A stretch of DNA of 22,579 bases from a virus, in IMG/VR virus record IMGVR_UViG_3300025887_000150, positions 1 to 22,579 of that record; one strand, given 5' to 3'. Shown here one piece after another: positions 2,027-22,044 of the stretch (within the stretch, counting starts at the first letter, position 1; each line of letters begins with the position of its first letter). The position numbers and the translations under genes were made by a program. The notes below the pieces were generated by a model that was not told where the DNA came from, did no database searches, and worked only from the letters and a program-made list of their open reading frames with translations.

Positions 2027-2106
2027 TTAGACAGTTGTATAATAGGGAGTACCAATTAGGTGCTTAGAACATTTACGCTCACTCAAGCGATAACTAGGAG
2101 AATATA

Positions 2107-2979
2107 ATGGAAGCAGATTCCAATAACACAGTTGAACATACTGATCAAAATGTTTCGGTAACAGATTCCGCAACGGACGTAGACAATTCATTGGAAACGG
2201 TTAAATCTGAGAAAAAAGCAACACCCAGTGTTGAAGTTAGAGATGGTAAGATATTCATTGATGGCAATCGTGTTTACTCACGAGATGACGTTAACAGAAT
2301 AGGTGCTAATGCTAGAAAAGAAGTTGAGTCTAAGTTAATACAAGACTTAAACGTTGATAGCATTGACAGTGTAAGAGGTGTTGTTAAAGCTCTTCAAGAA
2401 AGTACGCCAAGCGAAGAAGGTACTAGTCTAAATGTTAATTCATTACGAGACGCAGTACGCAAGCGTGAAGCCACAGTTGAAGAACTAACGCAACAAGTTA
2501 ATACACTCAAAACCGACTTACTATTACGGGACCATATGGGCCAACTTAATAGTGCTATGCCAAGTAATTGGTCAGACACTCAGAAGTCAGCAGTAATCAA
2601 ATTGATGAAAGCAGACAATATGTTAGCAGTGGAAGGTAACACATTTGCGATTAGAAACGGAAACGAATATCTAACCACAGATGGTGAAACACCTGACTAT
2701 GCTAGTGCTGTAGAACTAGTAGGTAGGAACTTAGGGCTTAACTTCGGTAAGAAAGGTGTTGATATGCCACTAGGTGAAATTAGTAACAGTGTTGAAAGTA
2801 GAAGTGCTGCAAAGCCAGTAGACAACAACAAAGTTAAGAATGAACCAGCATACAGAGAAGCGTATTTAGATTTACGCTTAAATCGTAAGGGTGGAGTTAG
2901 TACTAGTGATATCACAGATAATATGATAAAAGCTAGAGCTAGTGAAATCCAAAAAAGTAAGTCTAGGAATTACAATTAA
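2107..2979 (+). CDS. Capsid scaffolding protein
   Basis: This is a likely internal scaffold that co-assembles with the major capsid protein and leaves before DNA packaging. It has the usual scaffold composition: 290 residues, strongly hydrophilic, an acidic Asp/Ser/Thr-rich N-terminus (residues 1-40), a charged coiled-coil stretch around residues 108-145 (SLRDAVRKREATVEELTQQV) and a basic C-terminal tail ending KSKSRNYN. The tail is typical of the segment that binds the capsid shell. AGGAG (2096-2100) lies 6 bases before the ATG. It sits between portal and major capsid genes, the standard scaffold position. No serine-protease motif is evident, so it is probably not a prohead protease-scaffold fusion. 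The family was not recognised by direct sequence, only by composition and context. Confidence 0.65.
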   Translation: MEADSNNTVEHTDQNVSVTDSATDVDNSLETVKSEKKATPSVEVRDGKIFIDGNRVYSRDDVNRIGANARKEVESKLIQDLNVDSIDSVRGVVKALQESTPSEEGTSLNVNSLRDAVRKREATVEELTQQVNTLKTDLLLRDHMGQLNSAMPSNWSDTQKSAVIKLMKADNMLAVEGNTFAIRNGNEYLTTDGETPDYASAVELVGRNLGLNFGKKGVDMPLGEISNSVESRSAAKPVDNNKVKNEPAYREAYLDLRLNRKGGVSTSDITDNMIKARASEIQKSKSRNYN

Positions 2980-3019
2980 TTCCAGATTAAATTAAATTGT
3001 CAAATAATAGGAGACAACT

Positions 3020-3925
3020 ATGACAACTTCAACAAACGTTGCACAGTTATACACCGACTTAGTCGCAGATCTAGTACCATTCTTTATGAACGCTACCCTG
3101 CTTCCTAACTCAGCATTAATTCGCAACAGCATTAACATGGTCGGTGAGACCGGTGGAACCGTAAGATTCCCAGTAACAAACGCATACACAAACGCAGTAA
3201 ACGTGTCAGAAGGCGGGCCAATTGGATCAGCATCTAACTTAGTTCCTACAGCAGTAAGCATTGCACTACAAAAGCGTGGTGTTGGTTCAGACGTAACTCT
3301 TGAAGCGTTAAGTGACGGCGGATACGACTTAGTATATCGTTCAACACTACAAAGAATTGGTGGCGGTTTAGCACAAGCAACTGACATCGCTGGTTTATTA
3401 GTAGCAGCTACAGCCTTTACAGGTGAAGTTGGTACAGCATCAGCAGCTGACACTTCAACTAACAACATCATCTTCTCACCTGACGCATTAGGTTATGCAG
3501 TCAAAGACGAAGGTCCAATGGTAGAAACATGGTACGACGTGAACACTCAGACTCACCAGTTCAGAGGTTCAATCAGAGACGGCTATGCAGCTATTAAACC
3601 CTCATTCGGTGTTAAAATGACTGGCTTGAACACAGTTGGTACCGAAGTTGCAACAATTGGTTTTGATATCTCAAGTGTTGCACTGGCTACATCATTACTA
3701 CGTCAAGCAAATGCTACCACAATGGATAACGGTATGTACATTGCATGCGTTGACGCAGCAGCAGAATATGCTATTAATGCACAAGTTGCATTAGCTGGTG
3801 GTAATGCAGCAATCGGTTCACTTAGTGATATCGGTAACAAAGCGTTTTACGACGGATTAGTAGGTCAAGCAGTAGGCTGTGCGTTCTTTAGAACTAACAA
3901 CTTACCAACAGCTGACTTAACTTAA
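3020..3925 (+). CDS. Major capsid protein
   Basis: This is probably the major head protein, forming the icosahedral shell, most likely with an HK97-type fold. It has 301 residues. The N-terminal segment NVAQLYTDLVADLVPFFMNA is followed by ETGGTVRFPVTNAYTNAVNV, typical of the N-arm and E-loop strands of capsid proteins of this class. The middle has a helix-rich segment (DLVYRSTLQRIGGGLAQATD, about residues 110-130) resembling the spine helix. Alanine and glycine are abundant and there are no membrane segments. AGGAG (3009-3013) is well placed before the ATG. There is no obvious N-terminal delta domain or protease, which fits a separate scaffold protein upstream. The gene uses frequent GCA/GTA/ACA codons, as do its neighbours. 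Confidence 0.82.
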   Translation: MTTSTNVAQLYTDLVADLVPFFMNATLLPNSALIRNSINMVGETGGTVRFPVTNAYTNAVNVSEGGPIGSASNLVPTAVSIALQKRGVGSDVTLEALSDGGYDLVYRSTLQRIGGGLAQATDIAGLLVAATAFTGEVGTASAADTSTNNIIFSPDALGYAVKDEGPMVETWYDVNTQTHQFRGSIRDGYAAIKPSFGVKMTGLNTVGTEVATIGFDISSVALATSLLRQANATTMDNGMYIACVDAAAEYAINAQVALAGGNAAIGSLSDIGNKAFYDGLVGQAVGCAFFRTNNLPTADLT

Positions 3926-3940
3926 TATTAGGATAATACT

Positions 3941-4501
3941 ATGGCATTTGTAACGGACGGCAGCGGAAATGTAACATCATACGCAGAATACACTGACGTG
4001 TTGCAAAAGGATCAACGGTTATTAGAAGCAAACGTCATTAAAGTCCCGGCAGAGTCGGGCTTTATTGATGTAACTGACTTCATTGAAGACATGCTTACTA
4101 AAGCAACCAATCGTATTAACATTAAAATAAAAGCAAGTTCTTGGTGGGCTGGCTATTTGAATTACACAGGACAGAGCGTGAGCAATCCCGCACTAATGCC
4201 TGACTTTAATCCAAATAATATAGCAGCTAAACAACAAGAATTTACTGATATGGCAGTGTTTTACTGTTTGTATTACTACTTACTACCACTTATTGCAGAC
4301 TTCTCAACAGAAGAATCAGCAGAGCTTAGTAAGATAGAGTATTATGAAAACAAGTTCCAAGGTTTGTTTAACGAACTTATAGCACTTGCGGATTTCTACG
4401 ATGCAGACGGCGATGGTGTAATTGAAGATTCTGAAAAAGTCTGGACGGCCCAGACTGTGAGACGTAGCAGACGTAGAAGCACAGTGGTGAGAGTTAACTA
4501 A
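3941..4501 (+). CDS. Head-tail connector/adaptor protein with EF-hand loop
   Basis: This is a 186-residue protein directly downstream of the capsid gene, where head completion (adaptor) proteins are encoded; that role is inferred from position. The middle is helical and aromatic (FYCLYYYLLPLIADFS). Residues 154-165 read DADGDGVIEDSE, a full match to the 12-residue EF-hand calcium loop (D at 1, 3 and 5, G at 6, I at 8, E at 12). The C-terminus is very basic (VRRSRRRSTVVRVN), suited to contact DNA or the acidic portal. The stop overlaps the next ATG by one base (TAATG, 4499-4503), so the two are probably translationally coupled. A neck or minor head protein is an alternative. Confidence 0.5.
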   Translation: MAFVTDGSGNVTSYAEYTDVLQKDQRLLEANVIKVPAESGFIDVTDFIEDMLTKATNRINIKIKASSWWAGYLNYTGQSVSNPALMPDFNPNNIAAKQQEFTDMAVFYCLYYYLLPLIADFSTEESAELSKIEYYENKFQGLFNELIALADFYDADGDGVIEDSEKVWTAQTVRRSRRRSTVVRVN

Positions 4502-4926
4502 TGTCGATTAGATCATTACTCTTAACACAACTGGCTAAGACTACAGCGAATGGTGGTGTTGCTTCAACGGATTATTCCTTAGAAGCAACTGAACTACCGT
4601 GGACTGCTAGTGGTGAGCCTTTATATGTGAAAAACATGCGAGTCGTTTATGTCAGCGAAGAAGATGAAGCCAAGGTACAATTGTACCGAACGCTGGATCA
4701 GGGTGCAGTCTATCAGACTGATACTGTGGTCCAAGCCTTCTTAACTGAAGATGCCAAAAATATTAAAGCAAATAACCCAACAGTTATAGAAAACATGCTC
4801 AATGCTAAAAACGTAATCAATGGTGCTAACGGATATAATGTCCAGCTAGCCGAAAGTGCTTATGAACAGGAAATTGATGGTGACACTATAACGTATACCT
4901 TTGAGTATACTTTTACAACCATATAG
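4501..4926 (+). CDS. Probable tail terminator / tail completion protein
   Basis: This 141-residue protein is encoded immediately before the major tail protein, the usual place for the gpU-like tail terminator that caps the tail tube and joins it to the head. It is predicted alpha/beta: an N-terminal helix (IRSLLLTQLAKTTANG), strands around residues 42-70 (LYVKNMRVVYVSEEDEAKVQ) and a C-terminal strand pair (ITYTFEYTFTTI) in the style of terminator proteins. The TAG stop at 4924 is embedded in TAGGAG, which serves as the Shine-Dalgarno of the next gene. I did not recognise a specific family, so the call is from order, size and strand pattern. Confidence 0.45.
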   Translation: MSIRSLLLTQLAKTTANGGVASTDYSLEATELPWTASGEPLYVKNMRVVYVSEEDEAKVQLYRTLDQGAVYQTDTVVQAFLTEDAKNIKANNPTVIENMLNAKNVINGANGYNVQLAESAYEQEIDGDTITYTFEYTFTTI

Positions 4927-4936
4927 GAGAAACACA

Positions 4937-5422
4937 ATGGCAGTAATAAATGTAACACCGGGGTCAGAAGCAATCCTAACATTAGCACCACTTGGTTCGC
5001 CAGCTGATGCAATACCCGGAGCAGCAAACGGAATGGTAATACCACTTATGCAAGATGTAACAATCTCAGCATCACCTGGTATTGTTAGATATTCAGTATT
5101 AGATAATTCAGCAAGCAAAGCATTCACAACAGTTAACGAGAATAGTATTTCTGGTAATATGTTGTTAGACGAACTCACGTTCTTCGGCGATGCAGCTATT
5201 GTAGCAAATCAAGTAGCCACTGACGGATTATTTAAAACATCAACAGACAAAACAGAGATATCATTTAGTGTATCTTTCCAAGGAAGCGACGCTGGATCAC
5301 ATTACGTGAGCGGTACTGGCTTCATTAGTGGTTTAAGCCCAACAGCATCCATGGATGCGGCTGTGTGGTTAACCCCAATGGAAATTGTTGTTAATGGTGA
5401 ATTAGCTACCACAACCGTTTAA
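4937..5422 (+). CDS. Major tail (tube) protein
   Basis: This probably forms the stacked rings of the tail tube. I chose the ATG at 4937 (MAVINVTPGS) because AGGAG (4925-4929) sits 7 bases upstream. The in-frame ATG at 4901 lies inside the previous gene and has no ribosome site. The protein has 161 residues, is beta-rich, has no cysteine, and carries a central segment of alternating polar and hydrophobic residues (TEISFSVSFQGSDAGSHYVS) typical of tube proteins. The order terminator, tube protein, hairpin, chaperones, tape measure matches siphoviruses. The strong hairpin just downstream fits a gene needing excess expression. The family was not identified by a signature motif. Confidence 0.65.
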   Translation: MAVINVTPGSEAILTLAPLGSPADAIPGAANGMVIPLMQDVTISASPGIVRYSVLDNSASKAFTTVNENSISGNMLLDELTFFGDAAIVANQVATDGLFKTSTDKTEISFSVSFQGSDAGSHYVSGTGFISGLSPTASMDAAVWLTPMEIVVNGELATTTV

Positions 5423-5439
5423 TTGATATGACCCATAGT

Positions 5440-5465
5440 ATATAACTCCCCCCGGGGAGTTGTAT
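5440..5465 (+). terminator. Strong hairpin after the major tail gene
   Basis: AACTCCCC-CC-GGGGAGTT (5444-5461) is a perfect 8-bp inverted repeat. It extends outward by four pairs (ATAT/GTAT, one G-U) to a 12-bp stem spanning 5440-5465. The tail after it (CTTTATAG) is only weakly U-rich. It may be a partial rho-independent terminator or a 3' stability hairpin that lowers expression of the downstream chaperone genes relative to the tail protein. Confidence 0.6.
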
Positions 5466-5485: not shown

Positions 5486-5740
5486 ATGGAACATAGATTT
5501 CTACGAAATTACGATCAAGCAGGAACATGGACTAAGTCAACACGAATTATTCGTGTTAAAGGTGTAGAATTTGATCTAGATGAATACGCTGAGCTGCATG
5601 GTATTGAATTACCTGACAGACCTAGCAAGAAACCCAAAGATATACAGAAAGAGGTAAATACTAATGCAGATATGGGACGACAAGACGATTCCAGAGATAA
5701 TCAAATCGATGGAGATGGAAGTAGCGAAGGCTCAGAATGA
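5486..5740 (+). CDS. Small unknown protein with DLDEYA motif, paralogue of the 13501 product
   Basis: The function is unknown. It has 84 residues: an N-terminal part (1-45) and a hydrophilic, low-complexity tail (46-84, rich in K, D, S and G). The N-terminal part aligns with nearly the whole 50-aa protein encoded at 13501. Both have YD..G near the start, then TR, then G...D[LI]DEYA....I.LPD. The tail region overlaps out of frame with the gene at 5664, which may be why it is low-complexity. AGAGGA (5472-5477) lies 8 bases before the ATG. It sits between the tube protein and the tail chaperones, so a tail-assembly role is plausible but unproven. Confidence 0.7.
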   Translation: MEHRFLRNYDQAGTWTKSTRIIRVKGVEFDLDEYAELHGIELPDRPSKKPKDIQKEVNTNADMGRQDDSRDNQIDGDGSSEGSE

Positions 5741-5840
5741 ACTTCGTTGTGCTGAAAGAGATATTACTAAAGCACAAAGCAGGATAGCATTTACATTAAG
5801 TGCAATCCATAACCTAAACAACAGAGATATAAAGGAATAA
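5664..5840 (+). CDS. 58-aa helical protein overlapping the upstream gene
   Basis: This small ORF begins MQIWDDKTIPEIIKSMEMEV and ends NNRDIKE. It overlaps the last 77 bases of the 5486 gene in a different frame. AGAGGT (5650-5655) precedes the ATG by 8 bases, and the stop is 3 bases before the next gene, so the spacing fits a true gene. Residues 13-48 look like one amphipathic helix or short coiled coil (KSMEMEVAKAQNELRCAERD). I do not recognise a family. If not translated, 5741-5843 would be an unexplained 103-base gap in an otherwise gapless operon, which also argues for the gene. Confidence 0.65.
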   Translation: MQIWDDKTIPEIIKSMEMEVAKAQNELRCAERDITKAQSRIAFTLSAIHNLNNRDIKE

Positions 5841-5843
5841 GAT

Positions 5844-6140
5844 ATGAAGTTAACACAACTCGCAACCAAACCACAATTAGTTAAAATTGAGATTGATGAT
5901 CCAGAACTCGTAGAGAAGTATGGTGAAGTAGTCGAATTCTATGTACACGATAGAATAAACCTCGATCAATACACCAAGTTAGCTTCGATTAAAACAGAAG
6001 ACTTAGGCAGTATGATTGGGTTAATCAAAGAATTAGTATTAGACGAATCAGGTAAACCTGTGATGGATGAAGCGCATGTATTACCAACTGATTTGTTAAA
6101 TGCTTGTATGGTTAAAGTAGTTGACACGCTGGGAAAGTAA
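5844..6140 (+). CDS. Tail assembly chaperone, short form (lambda gpG-like)
   Basis: This 98-residue acidic protein is the zero-frame product of the chaperone cassette. In lambda-like phages gpG and the frameshifted gpGT bind the tape measure protein and recruit tube protein during tail assembly; neither stays in the virion. The call rests on the position between tube and tape measure genes, the acidic helical content (LDQYTKLASIKTEDLGSMIG) and, above all, the slippery heptamer at its 3' end opening into a second frame. AAGGA (5832-5836) is the ribosome site. The stop TAA (6138-6140) follows directly after the heptamer. Confidence 0.78.
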   Translation: MKLTQLATKPQLVKIEIDDPELVEKYGEVVEFYVHDRINLDQYTKLASIKTEDLGSMIGLIKELVLDESGKPVMDEAHVLPTDLLNACMVKVVDTLGK

Positions 6141-6388
6141 CAACCACTAGGTATCGCAAAGACGAACGTATCCTGGGGTTAATGTTGCTGGTAGATAGTA
6201 TGGCATCTAAGTATGGCATGCTACCAACAGACGTGTTGCGTAAAGCAACTACACAAGATGTACAAATACATTTCAATGTAGAAGCATATCGAGACGATGA
6301 AAGAACAAAAGCTTCAGGTGGAGCAGTAGACATAAGTAAACAATATACGCAAGAGGAATTGCAAGAGATATGGCAAAAATCACGGTAG
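5844..6388 (+). CDS. Tail assembly chaperone, frameshifted long form (lambda gpGT-like)
   Basis: This is a join of 5844-6137 in frame zero and 6137-6388 in the -1 frame, giving 98 + 83 = 181 residues with stop TAG at 6386-6388. The T-like part begins VTTTRYRKDERILGLMLLVD and continues through MLPTDVLRKATTQDVQIHFN to a polar C-terminus. It has no plausible start of its own with a ribosome site: the ATG at 6182 is internal and would drop the conserved run-in. That supports synthesis only as a fusion. The T domain of this family contacts the tube protein while the G part contacts the tape measure. Its 3' end overlaps the next gene (6370) by 19 bases. Confidence 0.75.
6131..6179 (+). promoter_or_regulatory. 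Programmed -1 frameshift site: GGGAAAG plus possible downstream stem-loop
   Basis: Bases 6131-6137 are G GGA AAG in the zero frame (codons CTG GGA AAG TAA), an exact X XXY YYZ heptamer and the same heptamer as lambda G/GT. After a -1 slip the frame reads GTA ACA ACC and is open to 6385. Five bases after the heptamer, ACC-a-CTAGGTA (6143-6153) can pair with TATCCTGGGGT (6169-6179). That gives about ten pairs with two single-base bulges and one G-U, with a further TCG/CGA pairing inside the loop. The heptamer is certain; the stem-loop is a hand fold. Confidence 0.8.
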
Positions 6389-8664: not shown

Positions 8665-9320
8665 GCCTACAAACAATAGTAGACAATGCAACATTCGCTA
8701 CAATTAAACGCAAGAAGATTGCTGGACAAAGCATATCTAGATCAGGTAGACTACTTACATCCGAAGTTGTAAGTGCTGTACCGTATCAGTTCACAACTGG
8801 TATGCACAATGGCTTACGGTATTCGACTAGTAGAGGACTTACAGAAGATTTAAACACATTAGACGTTACTGAAGAAGCTGTGATAGACATAGGTACTACT
8901 AATACCAGCTTGGCTTACATCACAGCATATCAAGGTGATATTGATCTCGCAGAAATAGCTGACGCTACCGTAACTAGTGCATCAGCTAGTAGCTTAGTGT
9001 TAAATACTAGTCTAGTAGCAGGCAGTGGTTTTATGTTTAAGAAAGGCGATTATGTGCAACTAGGCAGTGGGTATAGATATCCTTATCAAGTAACAGCAGA
9101 CGTAGCATACAACAGTAGCAGTGTAACAGTACCACTAAGCAGACCATTTATTCCGCAGCAGGGTTATACAGTAGCCGGCAAAGGTATTGTGGTAGGTCCT
9201 GCGGTTACTTGGCGTGTTAAAATGATTAACAAACCAACTTATAGTGTTATGCCAGGAGATTTATTGCAATTCGACATGAACTTCGAATTCATTGAATTCA
9301 TTAGAAAAGAGGACACATAA
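8661..9320 (+). CDS. Distal tail / minor tail protein (first tail-tip gene)
   Basis: This 219-residue protein directly follows the tape measure, the place of lambda gpM or of Dit-type distal tail proteins. It is probably a beta-rich ring component at the end of the tube. Sequence features are strand-rich regions (FMFKKGDYVQLGSGYRYPYQ) with the SSSVTVPLSRPF pattern also met in tail hub beta-domains, and a C-terminus dense in aromatic and acidic residues (FDMNFEFIEFIRKEDT). No cysteines or enzymatic motifs are seen. It overlaps the tape measure stop (ATGA) and its own TAATG overlaps the next gene by one base, so the three are tightly coupled. The exact family was not recognised. Confidence 0.6.
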   Translation: MSLQTIVDNATFATIKRKKIAGQSISRSGRLLTSEVVSAVPYQFTTGMHNGLRYSTSRGLTEDLNTLDVTEEAVIDIGTTNTSLAYITAYQGDIDLAEIADATVTSASASSLVLNTSLVAGSGFMFKKGDYVQLGSGYRYPYQVTADVAYNSSSVTVPLSRPFIPQQGYTVAGKGIVVGPAVTWRVKMINKPTYSVMPGDLLQFDMNFEFIEFIRKEDT

Positions 9321-9976: not shown

Positions 9977-10432
9977 ATGAAGATAAGACACTCAACATTA
10001 CACGATTTCGATAGAATAATGGAAATGATGATAGACTTCGCTAATAGTTCACCTTACGAAGCACACCATAACCCACAGTACGGGGACACATACGTTAGGC
10101 GTTTGTTGTGTCAGTTCATGATGAGTGGGTGTATACTACTAGCTGAGGTTGAAGGTAGGTCAGTGGGTATGCTTATAGGTGGTATTAGCCCTGATCCGTG
10201 GTTACCTGAAGTTAAGACACTACGAGAAATTGCGTGGTGGGTAGACCCAGAATACAGACAGACTAGTGCAGGATACAAGTTGTTACTAAAGTATATTGAA
10301 CTAGGTAAGAAATTACAAGAACAAAAGCTAATAGCTGGCTTCACATTAACAAACATGGAACAGTCACCTGACTTCAACTTAGAAAAACGCGGTTGGCGTC
10401 CAATAGAAAAGAATTACATTTACGAAGGATAA
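9977..10432 (+). CDS. GNAT-family N-acetyltransferase
   Basis: This 151-residue protein has a GNAT fold pattern. The first part is MKIRHSTLHDFDRIMEMMIDF (N-terminal strand and helix), the middle has a central beta pair (ILLAEVEGRSVGMLIGGI), and residues about 80-105 hold the acetyl-CoA motif A region WWVDPEYRQTSAGYKLLLKY. In motif A the usual Q/R-x-x-G-x-G/A loop reads RQTSAGY, a variant. The final part FNLEKRGWRPIEKNYIY matches the C-terminal GNAT strand (F...GW...). It transfers an acetyl group from acetyl-CoA to an amine of an unknown substrate. It is encoded between hub and tip genes and its ribosome site is weak (GGA at 9965-9967), suggesting low expression. Confidence 0.85.
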   Translation: MKIRHSTLHDFDRIMEMMIDFANSSPYEAHHNPQYGDTYVRRLLCQFMMSGCILLAEVEGRSVGMLIGGISPDPWLPEVKTLREIAWWVDPEYRQTSAGYKLLLKYIELGKKLQEQKLIAGFTLTNMEQSPDFNLEKRGWRPIEKNYIYEG

Positions 10433-10435
10433 GAT

Positions 10436-13075
10436 ATGGCAATATTTACAGCAATAGCAACAGCAATAGTTGGTGCACTTGGAATTAGTACCGCAGTAAT
10501 CTTTGGTACATTAACAGTTGCCGGACTAGCTACCAGTATTGTTGCCGCTGGTTTAATGATGGGTACTGCTAAAATACTAGGTGTATTTAAACCACCTAAT
10601 GTATCAGGCGGTAATGCAAGAGATCCAGGCGTTAAAGTACAAGTAGCACCAGGCACAGATAACAAAATACCTGTGTTTTATGGAACTAACTTAACAGGCG
10701 GTCTTATTGTTGATGCTGGTATCAGCAACCAAAATGACACAATGACATACGTTATTGTGCTGGGTGAGAAAACAGATACCGGTTCATATGCTGTAACTAA
10801 ACAATACCGAGGTGATCAGCAATTAGTATTTGGTACCGGCGCCAGCGCCCACATTGTACAATCAGTTATAGATGCTAACTCAACCGCAACTAATAAAGTT
10901 GCTGGTAAGATGAGATGCAGAATATACGCTGGTGGCACAGCCGCAGGCAATCAAATATTCCCTCTTACTAACCAAGTAGCAGCAACCACAATGCTATCAA
11001 CTATTACCGCTGCCACTAGCTATGCTGGACTGGTGTATGCAGTATTCCAAATTGATTATGATGCTGAAGAAGGACTCACAGGACTTGGGGCATACAGTGC
11101 AGAAATAACTAACACTCTCAGCGAGCCTGGTGCGGTATTAAGTGATTACTTGTTTAATGCACGTTATGGTGCTGGACTCACCGCTGATGAAGTTGATGTA
11201 GCTAGTATCGCTGAATTAACTGCTTATGCAACAGACCAAGTTGGGTACGTAGACGCATTGAACAACGCACAAACACACGATAGGTGGGCTATTAACGGGA
11301 TGATGGGCACATACAGCAGTGTATTTACTAACATTGACTTAATATGTCAAAGTTGTAGTGCATTCTTTACTTACAATCCCAAAGTAGGTAAATTTGAAGT
11401 AGTTCCTAACAGAGCAGCTACCACAGGGGAAAAGGCAGCCGCTTACATACTCACAGACGACAACATCACTGGTGCAATTGATGTAACATCAACTCAGCTG
11501 TATGCACAGTACAATGCTATTGAAGCAGAATATCCAGACGGTGCTCAACGAGATCAAACAGGCACAGTTAATGTTATTACACCACTACTTGAACGTAACA
11601 GTAACGAGCCAGATAACAAATTAACCACACGATATGCTATTGTTAATGACCCAGCTCGTGTTACAAACCTATCACAAATAGACTTACGCCAAAGCAGAAA
11701 GGACTTAGTTGTACAGCTAGATGCAGACTATGCAGCAATACAAAGTGAAGTAGGTGACATTGTTAAATTAACCAACGACACATACGGCTTTGTGGAAAAG
11801 TTATTCCGTGTTATGCGAGTTACTGAGAAAGAAGCACAAGATGGCATGTTATCAGTTAGCATGGTATTACTAGAATATGCTGATAGTGTTTACACGCACG
11901 AAGTAGTGAAAATGAACGCTCCGTTAAACCTATTAGGTATTCCAGGATGGTACACAGGCATATGGGGTAATGTTGATTACAGTAACATTGCTAATGTTGT
12001 AGGTAATGTTACTGTTGTAGATGACCCAATGAGTAATGTTGCAAACGTTATCACTGACCCAAATGTAGGTAATGTTATTGGTACTATACCAATCGGCAAT
12101 GTGACATATGGAACTGGTGGTAGTATTAACAATCCGAATGTTAACTTCCCAATAACTATACCAAGCATTCCTGACATACAACGCATCCTGGCTAACTTAA
12201 ATGTTATAGGCGGCCAAGTAGGAAATTATGTACCAGAGCCTGTAGAAATAAGACCTCCAGGAGGAAGAACATCATTTGTCCCTGGTGAAGTTGTAAATGT
12301 TACTTTACCGCAACCTGAAGTTAGACCATTAGATATTAACTTCCCAGTTGGACCACTTGCTGAAAGTTACCTTGGACAAATTGCTTTAGACTTTCAAAAC
12401 AATGCTGGTCAAGTAACAGCTAGATCTAACAGTGCTAACATCACAATGGCACCTAAAGGTGCAATTAATAGAGCAAGCATAGGTAGTGTGCAAGCAGGAT
12501 TAGGGTATGACTTCGACTTAGCAAATTTCTCTATAGCAAACAGTGATATAGTAAATGCTGAATTAGGCCAACCCGCTAGTCAGATAACACCTGCTGATAT
12601 TATTGACTTAGGTGGTATTGACTATGGTGAATTTAGTGCTGTTAACAGTATAGTACCATACGGTGGTATCATTGGAGGCACCACAGTTGCAATAGCATAT
12701 CAGCCTGTTAGACAAATAAATTACAAAGAATTTGATATAGATGCTGGAGGAAAATACACCCCAAATGCAAATGCAGCTATCATAGATATATGGAGTGGAA
12801 GCGGGATATACTCACAAGGTTTAACCACTCTAAGCACGATCACTGATAACTTTAAATACCCGGTATCTGAAGACAGAGGAAGTAGTGTTGCAGTAGCAGC
12901 AGGCTTACCCCCAGCAAGTGCAACTAAAGCGTATGTTCCTAGCACTATGTATTCAATAAATTTCGCTAACAGTAATTTAAGTAACACTGCCGCATCCAGA
13001 GGGTTTGATGTAACTAACTTAGACAAGCGTATTACTAAATCAGATATTTATATAGATATTGGAGGGTTTGGCTAA
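10436..13075 (+). CDS. Central tail tip / host specificity protein (lambda J-like)
   Basis: This large 879-residue protein probably forms the trimeric central tip that receives receptor signals and opens the tube. The first 45 residues are strongly hydrophobic (ALGISTAVIFGTLTVAGLAT), recalling the hydrophobic stretches of gpI-type assembly factors that are here joined to the tip protein. Residues about 240-480 form the J/gp27-like hub domains (DYLFNARYGAGLTADEVDV; MMGTYSSVFTNIDLICQSCS). Residues about 510-562 contain nine N-V dipeptides in spaced repeats, followed by a proline-rich linker (about 600-645). The rest is beta-rich C-terminal material. It is much shorter than lambda J (1132 aa). 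GAAGGAT (10424-10430) is the ribosome site. Confidence 0.75.
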   Translation: MAIFTAIATAIVGALGISTAVIFGTLTVAGLATSIVAAGLMMGTAKILGVFKPPNVSGGNARDPGVKVQVAPGTDNKIPVFYGTNLTGGLIVDAGISNQNDTMTYVIVLGEKTDTGSYAVTKQYRGDQQLVFGTGASAHIVQSVIDANSTATNKVAGKMRCRIYAGGTAAGNQIFPLTNQVAATTMLSTITAATSYAGLVYAVFQIDYDAEEGLTGLGAYSAEITNTLSEPGAVLSDYLFNARYGAGLTADEVDVASIAELTAYATDQVGYVDALNNAQTHDRWAINGMMGTYSSVFTNIDLICQSCSAFFTYNPKVGKFEVVPNRAATTGEKAAAYILTDDNITGAIDVTSTQLYAQYNAIEAEYPDGAQRDQTGTVNVITPLLERNSNEPDNKLTTRYAIVNDPARVTNLSQIDLRQSRKDLVVQLDADYAAIQSEVGDIVKLTNDTYGFVEKLFRVMRVTEKEAQDGMLSVSMVLLEYADSVYTHEVVKMNAPLNLLGIPGWYTGIWGNVDYSNIANVVGNVTVVDDPMSNVANVITDPNVGNVIGTIPIGNVTYGTGGSINNPNVNFPITIPSIPDIQRILANLNVIGGQVGNYVPEPVEIRPPGGRTSFVPGEVVNVTLPQPEVRPLDINFPVGPLAESYLGQIALDFQNNAGQVTARSNSANITMAPKGAINRASIGSVQAGLGYDFDLANFSIANSDIVNAELGQPASQITPADIIDLGGIDYGEFSAVNSIVPYGGIIGGTTVAIAYQPVRQINYKEFDIDAGGKYTPNANAAIIDIWSGSGIYSQGLTTLSTITDNFKYPVSEDRGSSVAVAAGLPPASATKAYVPSTMYSINFANSNLSNTAASRGFDVTNLDKRITKSDIYIDIGGFG

Positions 13076-13500: not shown

Positions 13501-13653
13501 ATGAGATTAGATAGCATAATAATGAGAATGTATGATGGGGAAGGCAATTATATTGGTCCACCAACACGCAAATTCGTATTCAATGGTGAAGTTATAGACA
13601 TTGATGAGTATGCAGGGGAGTATAACATAGTATTACCGGACGCAGGAGAATAG
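13501..13653 (+). CDS. 50-aa small protein, paralogue of the 5486 product
   Basis: This short ORF starts MRLDSIIMRMYDGEGNYIGP and ends VLPDAGE. AAGGAGAT (13487-13494) stands 6-8 bases before the ATG, a near-ideal ribosome site overlapping the upstream stop. It matches residues 1-45 of the 5486 product: MYDGEG/NYDQAG, PTR/STR, then G...D[LI]DEYA....I.LPD, about ten identities in the last 24 aligned residues with no gaps there. The function is unknown. It is followed by a 108-base gap, so it ends the tip sub-operon. Its acidic charge and small size fit an accessory tail-assembly factor, but that is only inference. Confidence 0.75.
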   Translation: MRLDSIIMRMYDGEGNYIGPPTRKFVFNGEVIDIDEYAGEYNIVLPDAGE

Positions 13654-13761
13654 TATTCCTATAGGTTTATATCAAACATAAATTTAGCATTAGGCATAAA
13701 TAGTATTAAATTAAATTCGATAACGCCTTAGTGTTATGGTCTTATCCCACAGGAGTATAAC
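13654..13761 (+). promoter_or_regulatory. Noncoding gap before the fibre module: weak promoter and hairpin
   Basis: This 108-base AT-rich gap separates the tip sub-operon from the adsorption genes. TTAGCA then TTAAAT, 16 bases apart, is a 4/6 + 4/6 promoter-like match. ATAACGC-CTTA-GTGTTAT (13720-13737) is a 7-bp hairpin with one G-U. ACAGGAG (13748-13754) is the ribosome site of the next gene. A local promoter or processing hairpin is plausible, but neither element is strong. Confidence 0.3.
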
Positions 13762-14529
13762 ATGTCAGGTAGATTATTAGATTTCAAAAGTTATGTTGGC
13801 GGCGCAGACGCGGTAGTGGTTGAGGAAGTATTTCCGAATACCTCAAAAACATACACATACCAGTTCGGTACAGATACAACAACATGGACTTTCGGTGCAA
13901 CATATCAAACATTAGTTGCTGATGTAGTAACTTACGATAGAAACACTGGATTACCTAACTTTACAGAGACTAATATTACTGGTTTCTTTGGCAACCCTGG
14001 CGCAGTTATCCCTCTTAGCAACATTAATAATAACGGCTTAGACGGATCAGTAAATTTCACTATCCCTGCAGGCTTATACACCGGACCAATTATACCCAGT
14101 GCGAGAATAAATGTACCGATGACAGTTGTAACATTTACTTGGACTAACCCAAATGGCTCAATGCCAGATATTGTTGAATCGCACAGATGGTGCTTGATGC
14201 AACGCTGGGAAAGTAGTGTATCACCAGCAGACCCAATACTAGACCCTACTTATACTCCATTAGGCACAGGCGCATTATTAACATTCAGTGATAACAGTGC
14301 AACAGACACTAACAGAGTAGCAGGTTCGTACACTGTTACTGGATTAAGTAACAAAGAAGGTACAGGCGCAACGTTCAGTGTTGAAGTATCTGCTACTGGA
14401 GTTACAAGTGTTAATATTACCAGCAGAGGCGCTGGTTACAACGTAGGCGACACCGTAGAGTTGTTAGACGTTAACATGGGCAAAGGCGGCGGCGCAGATA
14501 TAACAATAACAGTATCAACTGTAGCTTAA
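13762..14529 (+). CDS. Phage structural protein with C-terminal beta domain
   Basis: This 255-residue beta-rich protein lies just before the giant fibre and is probably a virion protein at the base of the fibre. It has no membrane segment or signal peptide. Residues about 190-253 (GTGATFSVEVSATGVTSVNI, then GAGYNVGDTVELLD and GGGADITITV) form a small domain pattern, G.GA.F.V...G.V..V.I...G.GY.VGDT, which I recall as recurrent in phage structural proteins. The first 175 residues were not recognised. There are aromatic-rich strands (TYQFGTDTTTWTFGATYQTL) and one cysteine near residue 145. The next gene starts 10 bases after its stop. Confidence 0.6.
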   Translation: MSGRLLDFKSYVGGADAVVVEEVFPNTSKTYTYQFGTDTTTWTFGATYQTLVADVVTYDRNTGLPNFTETNITGFFGNPGAVIPLSNINNNGLDGSVNFTIPAGLYTGPIIPSARINVPMTVVTFTWTNPNGSMPDIVESHRWCLMQRWESSVSPADPILDPTYTPLGTGALLTFSDNSATDTNRVAGSYTVTGLSNKEGTGATFSVEVSATGVTSVNITSRGAGYNVGDTVELLDVNMGKGGGADITITVSTVA

Positions 14530-21714: not shown

Positions 21715-22044
21715 ATGGTAGATAACACCACAAAAAACCATCATCCAGCAGACAGTAATGGTGATGGCAAAGTATCCAAGACTGAACAAACAATGTACTT
21801 AGAGTTCAAACGCAAAGAACTTGAAGATGCAGATGCAATGCGAGATGCACAACGCAAGATGGCATGGTTTGCATTAGTAGGTATGTTGCTGTATCCGTTT
21901 GCAGTTGTGATAGCATCGTTGGCAGGTTTAAGCGAAGCACAATCAACATTAGGCTCAATGGCACCCACATACTTTGTTGCAGTAGCAGGTATAGTAGCAG
22001 CATTCTTTGCTTCTCAATCATACAGCAATAATAAGGATAAATAA
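21715..22044 (+). CDS. Holin-like two-span membrane protein with N-terminal EF-hand loop
   Basis: This has 109 residues. Residues 13-24 are DSNGDGKVSKTE, a complete 12-residue EF-hand loop (D1, N3, D5, G6, V8, E12). A charged helix (30-48, EFKRKELEDADAMRDAQRK) leads into two hydrophobic spans at about 49-72 and 82-100, with a short linker. The tail is polar and basic. Two spans, small size and a coiled-coil membrane neighbour fit a class II holin, which would open the inner membrane for the endolysin. No lysin gene is in this window, so the lysis role is inferred. AAGGA (21701-21705) is the ribosome site. Calcium binding is predicted from the motif only. Confidence 0.6.
   Translation: MVDNTTKNHHPADSNGDGKVSKTEQTMYLEFKRKELEDADAMRDAQRKMAWFALVGMLLYPFAVVIASLAGLSEAQSTLGSMAPTYFVAVAGIVAAFFASQSYSNNKDK

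Follow-up and report, generated by a model that had tools for sequence, protein, structure and literature searches.

Two small proteins of a marine siphophage, here called P1 and P2, are members of a real, undescribed, duplicated protein family that belongs to one phage clade. Both are encoded in the window, the 22,579-nt stretch of viral DNA analysed here, where their ORFs have the positions and lengths that the earlier note gave. P1 (84 aa, 5486–5740, + strand) and P2 (50 aa, 13501–13653, + strand) have in common a domain of ~45 residues. In P1, this domain covers residues ~1–45 (5486–5620) and is followed by a Lys-rich linker and an acidic disordered tail; P2 consists of the domain alone.

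What is the evidence that P1 and P2 are related? The proteins are short and form a single pair in the window, as might be expected of a chance resemblance. First, a Smith-Waterman alignment of P1 and P2 scores 60, whereas none of 20,000 joint shuffles exceeds 52 (Gumbel p ~6e-6). The earlier count of ten ungapped identities over the last 24 aligned positions (G; D.DEYA; I.LPD) is correct. The alignment had also been described as nearly full-length; the homology holds, but it is limited to P1 residues ~5–45, with the rest of P1 unmatched in P2. Second, relatives were fetched via neighboring genes (hub, tube, tape measure), and all ORFs of those contigs were searched with single sequences using phmmer. 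Positional orthologues of both proteins were recovered, and each protein also found the orthologues of the other, with E down to 1e-7 for P2 as the query against P1 orthologues, and down to 5e-4 for P1 as the query against P2 orthologues. In the window's own record, a P2 query matches P2 and P1 only. Third, hhalign comparison of one family with the other gives a probability of 99.2 and an E of 1e-19 over 44 columns with 36% identity, so the proposed kinship is upheld at the profile level. Given the shuffle p-value, the cross-matches over dozens of orthologues and the profile E-value, chance resemblance is rejected as scarcely credible.

The combined P1/P2 profile led to additional viral contigs, and both copies in the window match the profile of the 45-residue core. 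An iterated HMM collects 61 distinct P1-type and 17 distinct P2-type ORFs, with no other significant score. In a tree of the 45-residue domain, a single branch splits all P1 from all P2 (support 95/94; 96% of bootstrap trees), which fits one old duplication, with the caution that the tree has 46 columns and its root is unknown. The ratio dN/dS from Nei-Gojobori counts is ~0.30 for the P1 core and ~0.38 for P2, rough values with synonymous sites near saturation; hence both proteins look translated, and both look to be under purifying selection.

In this analysis, the family turned up in just one clade of small (~27–30 kb) marine siphophages, whose gene order is fixed. This order runs portal, scaffold, capsid, adaptor, the gene at 4501, tube, P1, ORF B, gpG, gpT, the gene at 6370 and tape measure, followed by a Dit-like gene, the gene at 9320, an acetyltransferase-like gene, hub, the APC chaperone, P2 where present, the gene at 13762 and fibre; several of these names are labels given by position. 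The placement of P1 after the tube gene and of P2 after the fibre-assembly chaperone gene, ~8 kb apart, was first noted in the window and is reproduced across the clade, with P1-P2 spacings of 7.9–8.5 kb. Among loci fetched via hub, tube and tape measure, some of which are near-duplicates, P1 lies between tube and gpG in 34/34 that have both of these genes, and P2 is present in 11/32 that have both hub and the gene at 13762. Counting copies per genome, records of about 27–30 kb have a single P1 and at most one P2. P1 is thus universal and P2 optional, and the two are not an obligate pair. The second P1 in a 47.9-kb record (L121/L122, the record of L038) was rejected as an additional copy; the entire structural module is present twice, and this P1 belongs to the second of the two modules, which lie ~27.7 kb apart with DNA 83–86% identical where aligned. 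These are probably two strains joined in assembly, and the record suggests a genome of ~28 kb.

The absence of P2 from about two thirds of loci, where a short clean gap of 43–121 nt is mostly found and some loci have a different, larger gene, could indicate that P2 is a non-essential relic of the duplication with no function of its own. This is very improbable, given that P2 has a dN/dS of ~0.38, is kept in divergent genomes, and is associated with a particular type of hub, as described below. A variable extra gene of 439–533 aa lies between APC/P2 and the gene at 13762 in five loci (L026, L028, L054, L069 and L090).

The family had been suspected to be undescribed, and it is absent from the Pfam, PHROGs, NCBIfam, PDB and BFVD libraries searched. 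Searches of PDB sequences, PHROGs, Pfam and NCBIfam with the family gave no consistent match, the best being at noise level, and P1 and P2 as single queries found almost no matches in phage or viral collections. No cultured phage has a significant match to either protein; the domain is lacking in P19250A, HTVC111P and DSL-LC06, the nearest cultured phages by hub or portal. A pattern scan of genome contigs for cellular relatives gave 39 matches, none of which was confirmed, and a literature search on the pair found nothing. HTVC111P, a Pelagibacter phage, and DSL-LC06 do encode a small protein (gp42 in HTVC111P) that resembles P1 by eye in having a short N-terminal domain and a charged tail and in being encoded next to the tube gene. 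Unlike P1, these proteins are encoded just before the tube gene, and they have no detectable homology to the P1/P2 profile.

Structure prediction of each protein alone points to a shared fold, as had been proposed. The AlphaFold2 model of P2 (mean pLDDT 91.3) has a helix at residues 3–8, strands at 24–27 and 30–33, and a second helix at 34–40. The AlphaFold model of P1 has the same helix/beta-hairpin/helix order in residues 4–38, with a disordered tail; the models were compared by element order, and confidence for the P1 core is moderate (69–82 by block). The P2 model has no match in the PDB or in viral predicted folds, including BFVD, at a Foldseek E of at most 0.001 or a VIA Z of at least 2, and no match from the fold searches gives a mechanism for P1/P2. 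The model bears on the possibility that P1 and P2 act outside tail assembly, for example in regulation or host takeover, and just happen to be located in the late operon. The hairpin and helix are reminiscent of how small DNA-binding domains begin, and a few noise-level Foldseek matches are to phage HNH/homing nucleases, all with E>1. Moreover, small optional genes of late operons are often unrelated cargo. However, the model has no second (recognition) helix, the family and structure matches are all at noise level, and cargo would not usually be universal at one fixed position, as P1 is. We therefore regard a role outside tail assembly as distinctly unlikely.

P1 is embedded in a conserved neighborhood. 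Upstream of it is the tail tube gene (4937–5422, + strand), a conserved anchor that has no PHROG match and was named as such in the earlier note. Between the tube stop and the P1 start lies a hairpin, AACTCCCC-CC-GGGGAGTT (5444–5461, + strand), that covaries across relatives: six of its eight pairs have two-sided compensatory changes. It has no clear T-run, and it may stabilize or partly terminate the tube transcript. Downstream, the P1 tail is overlapped by the start of ORF B, which encodes a 58-aa, coiled-coil-like protein (5664–5840, + strand); the overlap is 77 nt, stop included, with ORF B in the +1 frame. The overlap is seen in the examined P1 loci whose contig extends to ORF B, and in 58 distinct copies of ORF B, P1 ends 41–74 sense nt into it. 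ORF B is strongly conserved in the clade, with a single weak PHROG match (phrog_25444, E 0.0055), and has its own conserved ATG, a purine-rich stretch upstream, and a constant start motif, M(Q/K/E)IW. Synonymous variation in ORF B is 0.31 within the P1 overlap versus 0.28 outside, and is thus not depressed, so no strong separate selection is seen on the P1 tail. The conservation of the tail is largely explained by its overlap with the start region of ORF B, which weakens the case for the acidic tail as a conserved functional element. Judged from these comparisons, the first 45 residues probably make up the functional unit of P1.

Could P1 and ORF B be a frameshifted chaperone pair? The lambda tail assembly chaperones gpG/gpGT are, like P1, small late proteins encoded between the tube and tape-measure genes. 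A gpG/gpGT-like pair exists in this phage besides P1 and ORF B, directly downstream of them: a gpG-like tail assembly chaperone (5844–6140, + strand) has a lambda-type slip site, GGGAAAG (6131–6137), leading into a gpT-like frame (6125–6388). The slip site is conserved in nearly all loci, with GGGAAAA or GGGGAAG in a few relatives, and the gpT frame is −1 relative to gpG in 69/69. P1 differs from lambda gpG/gpGT in having no frameshift, and no homology to this phage's gpG/gpGT-like pair; no −1 slip site joins it to a second frame ahead of the tape measure. Since the slip site is downstream, at 5844/6125, and ORF B lies in the +1 frame relative to P1 and starts from an ATG of its own, the frameshifted pair is rejected.

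P2, where present, is always directly after the gene for a tail (fibre) assembly chaperone, Phage_tail_APC PF16778 (13075–13488, + strand; E 2.8e-14). Although it lies next to a tail fibre assembly protein of this kind, P2 is unlike PF16778 and Caudo_TAP, having no Pfam HMM match and being about one third the size. The presence of P2 tracks the type of the C-terminal region of the hub protein (12056–13075, + strand). All 17 distinct full hubs from loci with P2, including the window's, match the window's C-terminal 339 residues with at least 59 bits; among hubs from loci without P2, 3/21 reach at least 59 bits, and the other 18 reach at most 35. The ratio of between-group to within-group similarity for P2 presence is 0.19 for the hub C-terminus, versus 0.64–0.85 in other tail genes. 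A Fisher test of P2 against hub type, run with 3/20 (3/21 on recount), gives a p of 9e-8, which is overstated as the loci are interrelated. The association is not mere relatedness, because L014 and L028 have neither a P2-type hub C-terminus nor P2, although the hub N-terminus places them nearer to the window (67–68%) than L046/L048 (54–55%). Nevertheless, the hub C-terminus, APC and P2 genes are adjacent, and joint travel alone could explain the association. Distance-matrix (mirror-tree) tests added no support: they gave no sign that P1 coevolves specifically with tube or gpG, or P2 with the hub C-terminus or APC. Two further observations concern this region. The L072 hub (2036–5164) has an extra C-terminal stretch that is Hint/intein-like by eye, starting CFIAGS and ending VVHNK. 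The gene just before the hub in the tail operon (9977–10432) is acetyltransferase-like, GNAT being a label only, and HTVC111P and DSL-LC06 have an annotated acyl/acetyltransferase in the corresponding position.

The late transcription unit appears, from its sequence motifs, to extend from before the portal gene to P2. T4-late-promoter-like (G/C)ATAAATA motifs occur on the + strand of the window at 270, before portal; at 13695, before the gene at 13762; and at 22036, near the 3' end of the ORF at 21715, with another open frame beginning at ~22133. Across the clade, the motif clusters before portal and the gene at 13762, which together account for 51/80 distinct GATAAATA sites on the + strand. 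The motif at 13695 (CATAAATA, + strand) starts the unit after P2. Between it and the ribosome-binding site of the gene at 13762 is a 5'-leader hairpin, ATAACGCCTTAGTGTTAT (13720–13737, + strand), with the loop CCTTAG in the window; its sequence varies across loci, and by eye the hairpin persists. These T4-late-like motifs occur although the phages of the clade are siphophages, and a scan of 19 ORFs taken from the non-structural half of two relatives turned up no gp55-like sigma. On the evidence of the motifs, P1 and P2 would share a late transcript, with P2 as its final gene. The earlier description of the pair as standing at both ends of the tail operon needs amending for P1, which is not at the start of an operon; the unit appears to begin at the motif before portal (270).

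What do P1 and P2 do? The reading that we favor, at roughly even confidence, is that both are small accessory proteins of tail assembly, with a general role for P1 and one specialized for the tip for P2. It is based on position, conservation, and the association of P2 with one hub type; in particular, the position and universality of P1 argue for a general step in tail morphogenesis. Both proteins would be non-enzymatic. At the tube and gpG/gpGT chaperone stage, the core of P1 would bind a tail protein, whereas the flexible charged tail of P1 would be largely a by-product of the overlapping ORF B. P2 would be a specialized copy for the distal end, where, alongside the fibre chaperone encoded just before it, it would help one type of hub C-terminus or its fibre to fold, dock or be capped. 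Counting against this role at the tip, L012 has a P2-type hub C-terminus without P2, and L017/L020 have a distant version.

The main rival, ranked next and rather unlikely, is that P1 and P2 are minor virion components: P1 on or in the tube or at the head-tail joint, and P2 at the tip, as a small cap or connector, both binding related surfaces by means of the same fold. Both genes are within the structural late unit, the fold is compact and confidently predicted, and the tracking of hub C-terminal type by P2 would suit a structural partner no less than a chaperone client. However, no virion protein in PHROGs or the PDB is homologous to either of them, and P2 can be missing even where the hub C-terminus is related, as in L012. 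A further reading is that the domain is a reusable docking module serving two successive assembly stages, with P1 at the tube/tape-measure stage and the duplicated P2 recruited for a similar job at the tip, with one type of hub C-terminus; we consider this improbable.

To our knowledge, marine siphophage tail operons have many small conserved genes that are unnamed in any database. As a small conserved tail-operon protein, the P1/P2 family is ordinary; what is unusual is that it has been duplicated and redeployed at the opposite end of the tail genes. If P1 and P2 are assembly factors, tube assembly and tip assembly would both make use of one fold, and the hub-type association points to a concrete candidate partner.
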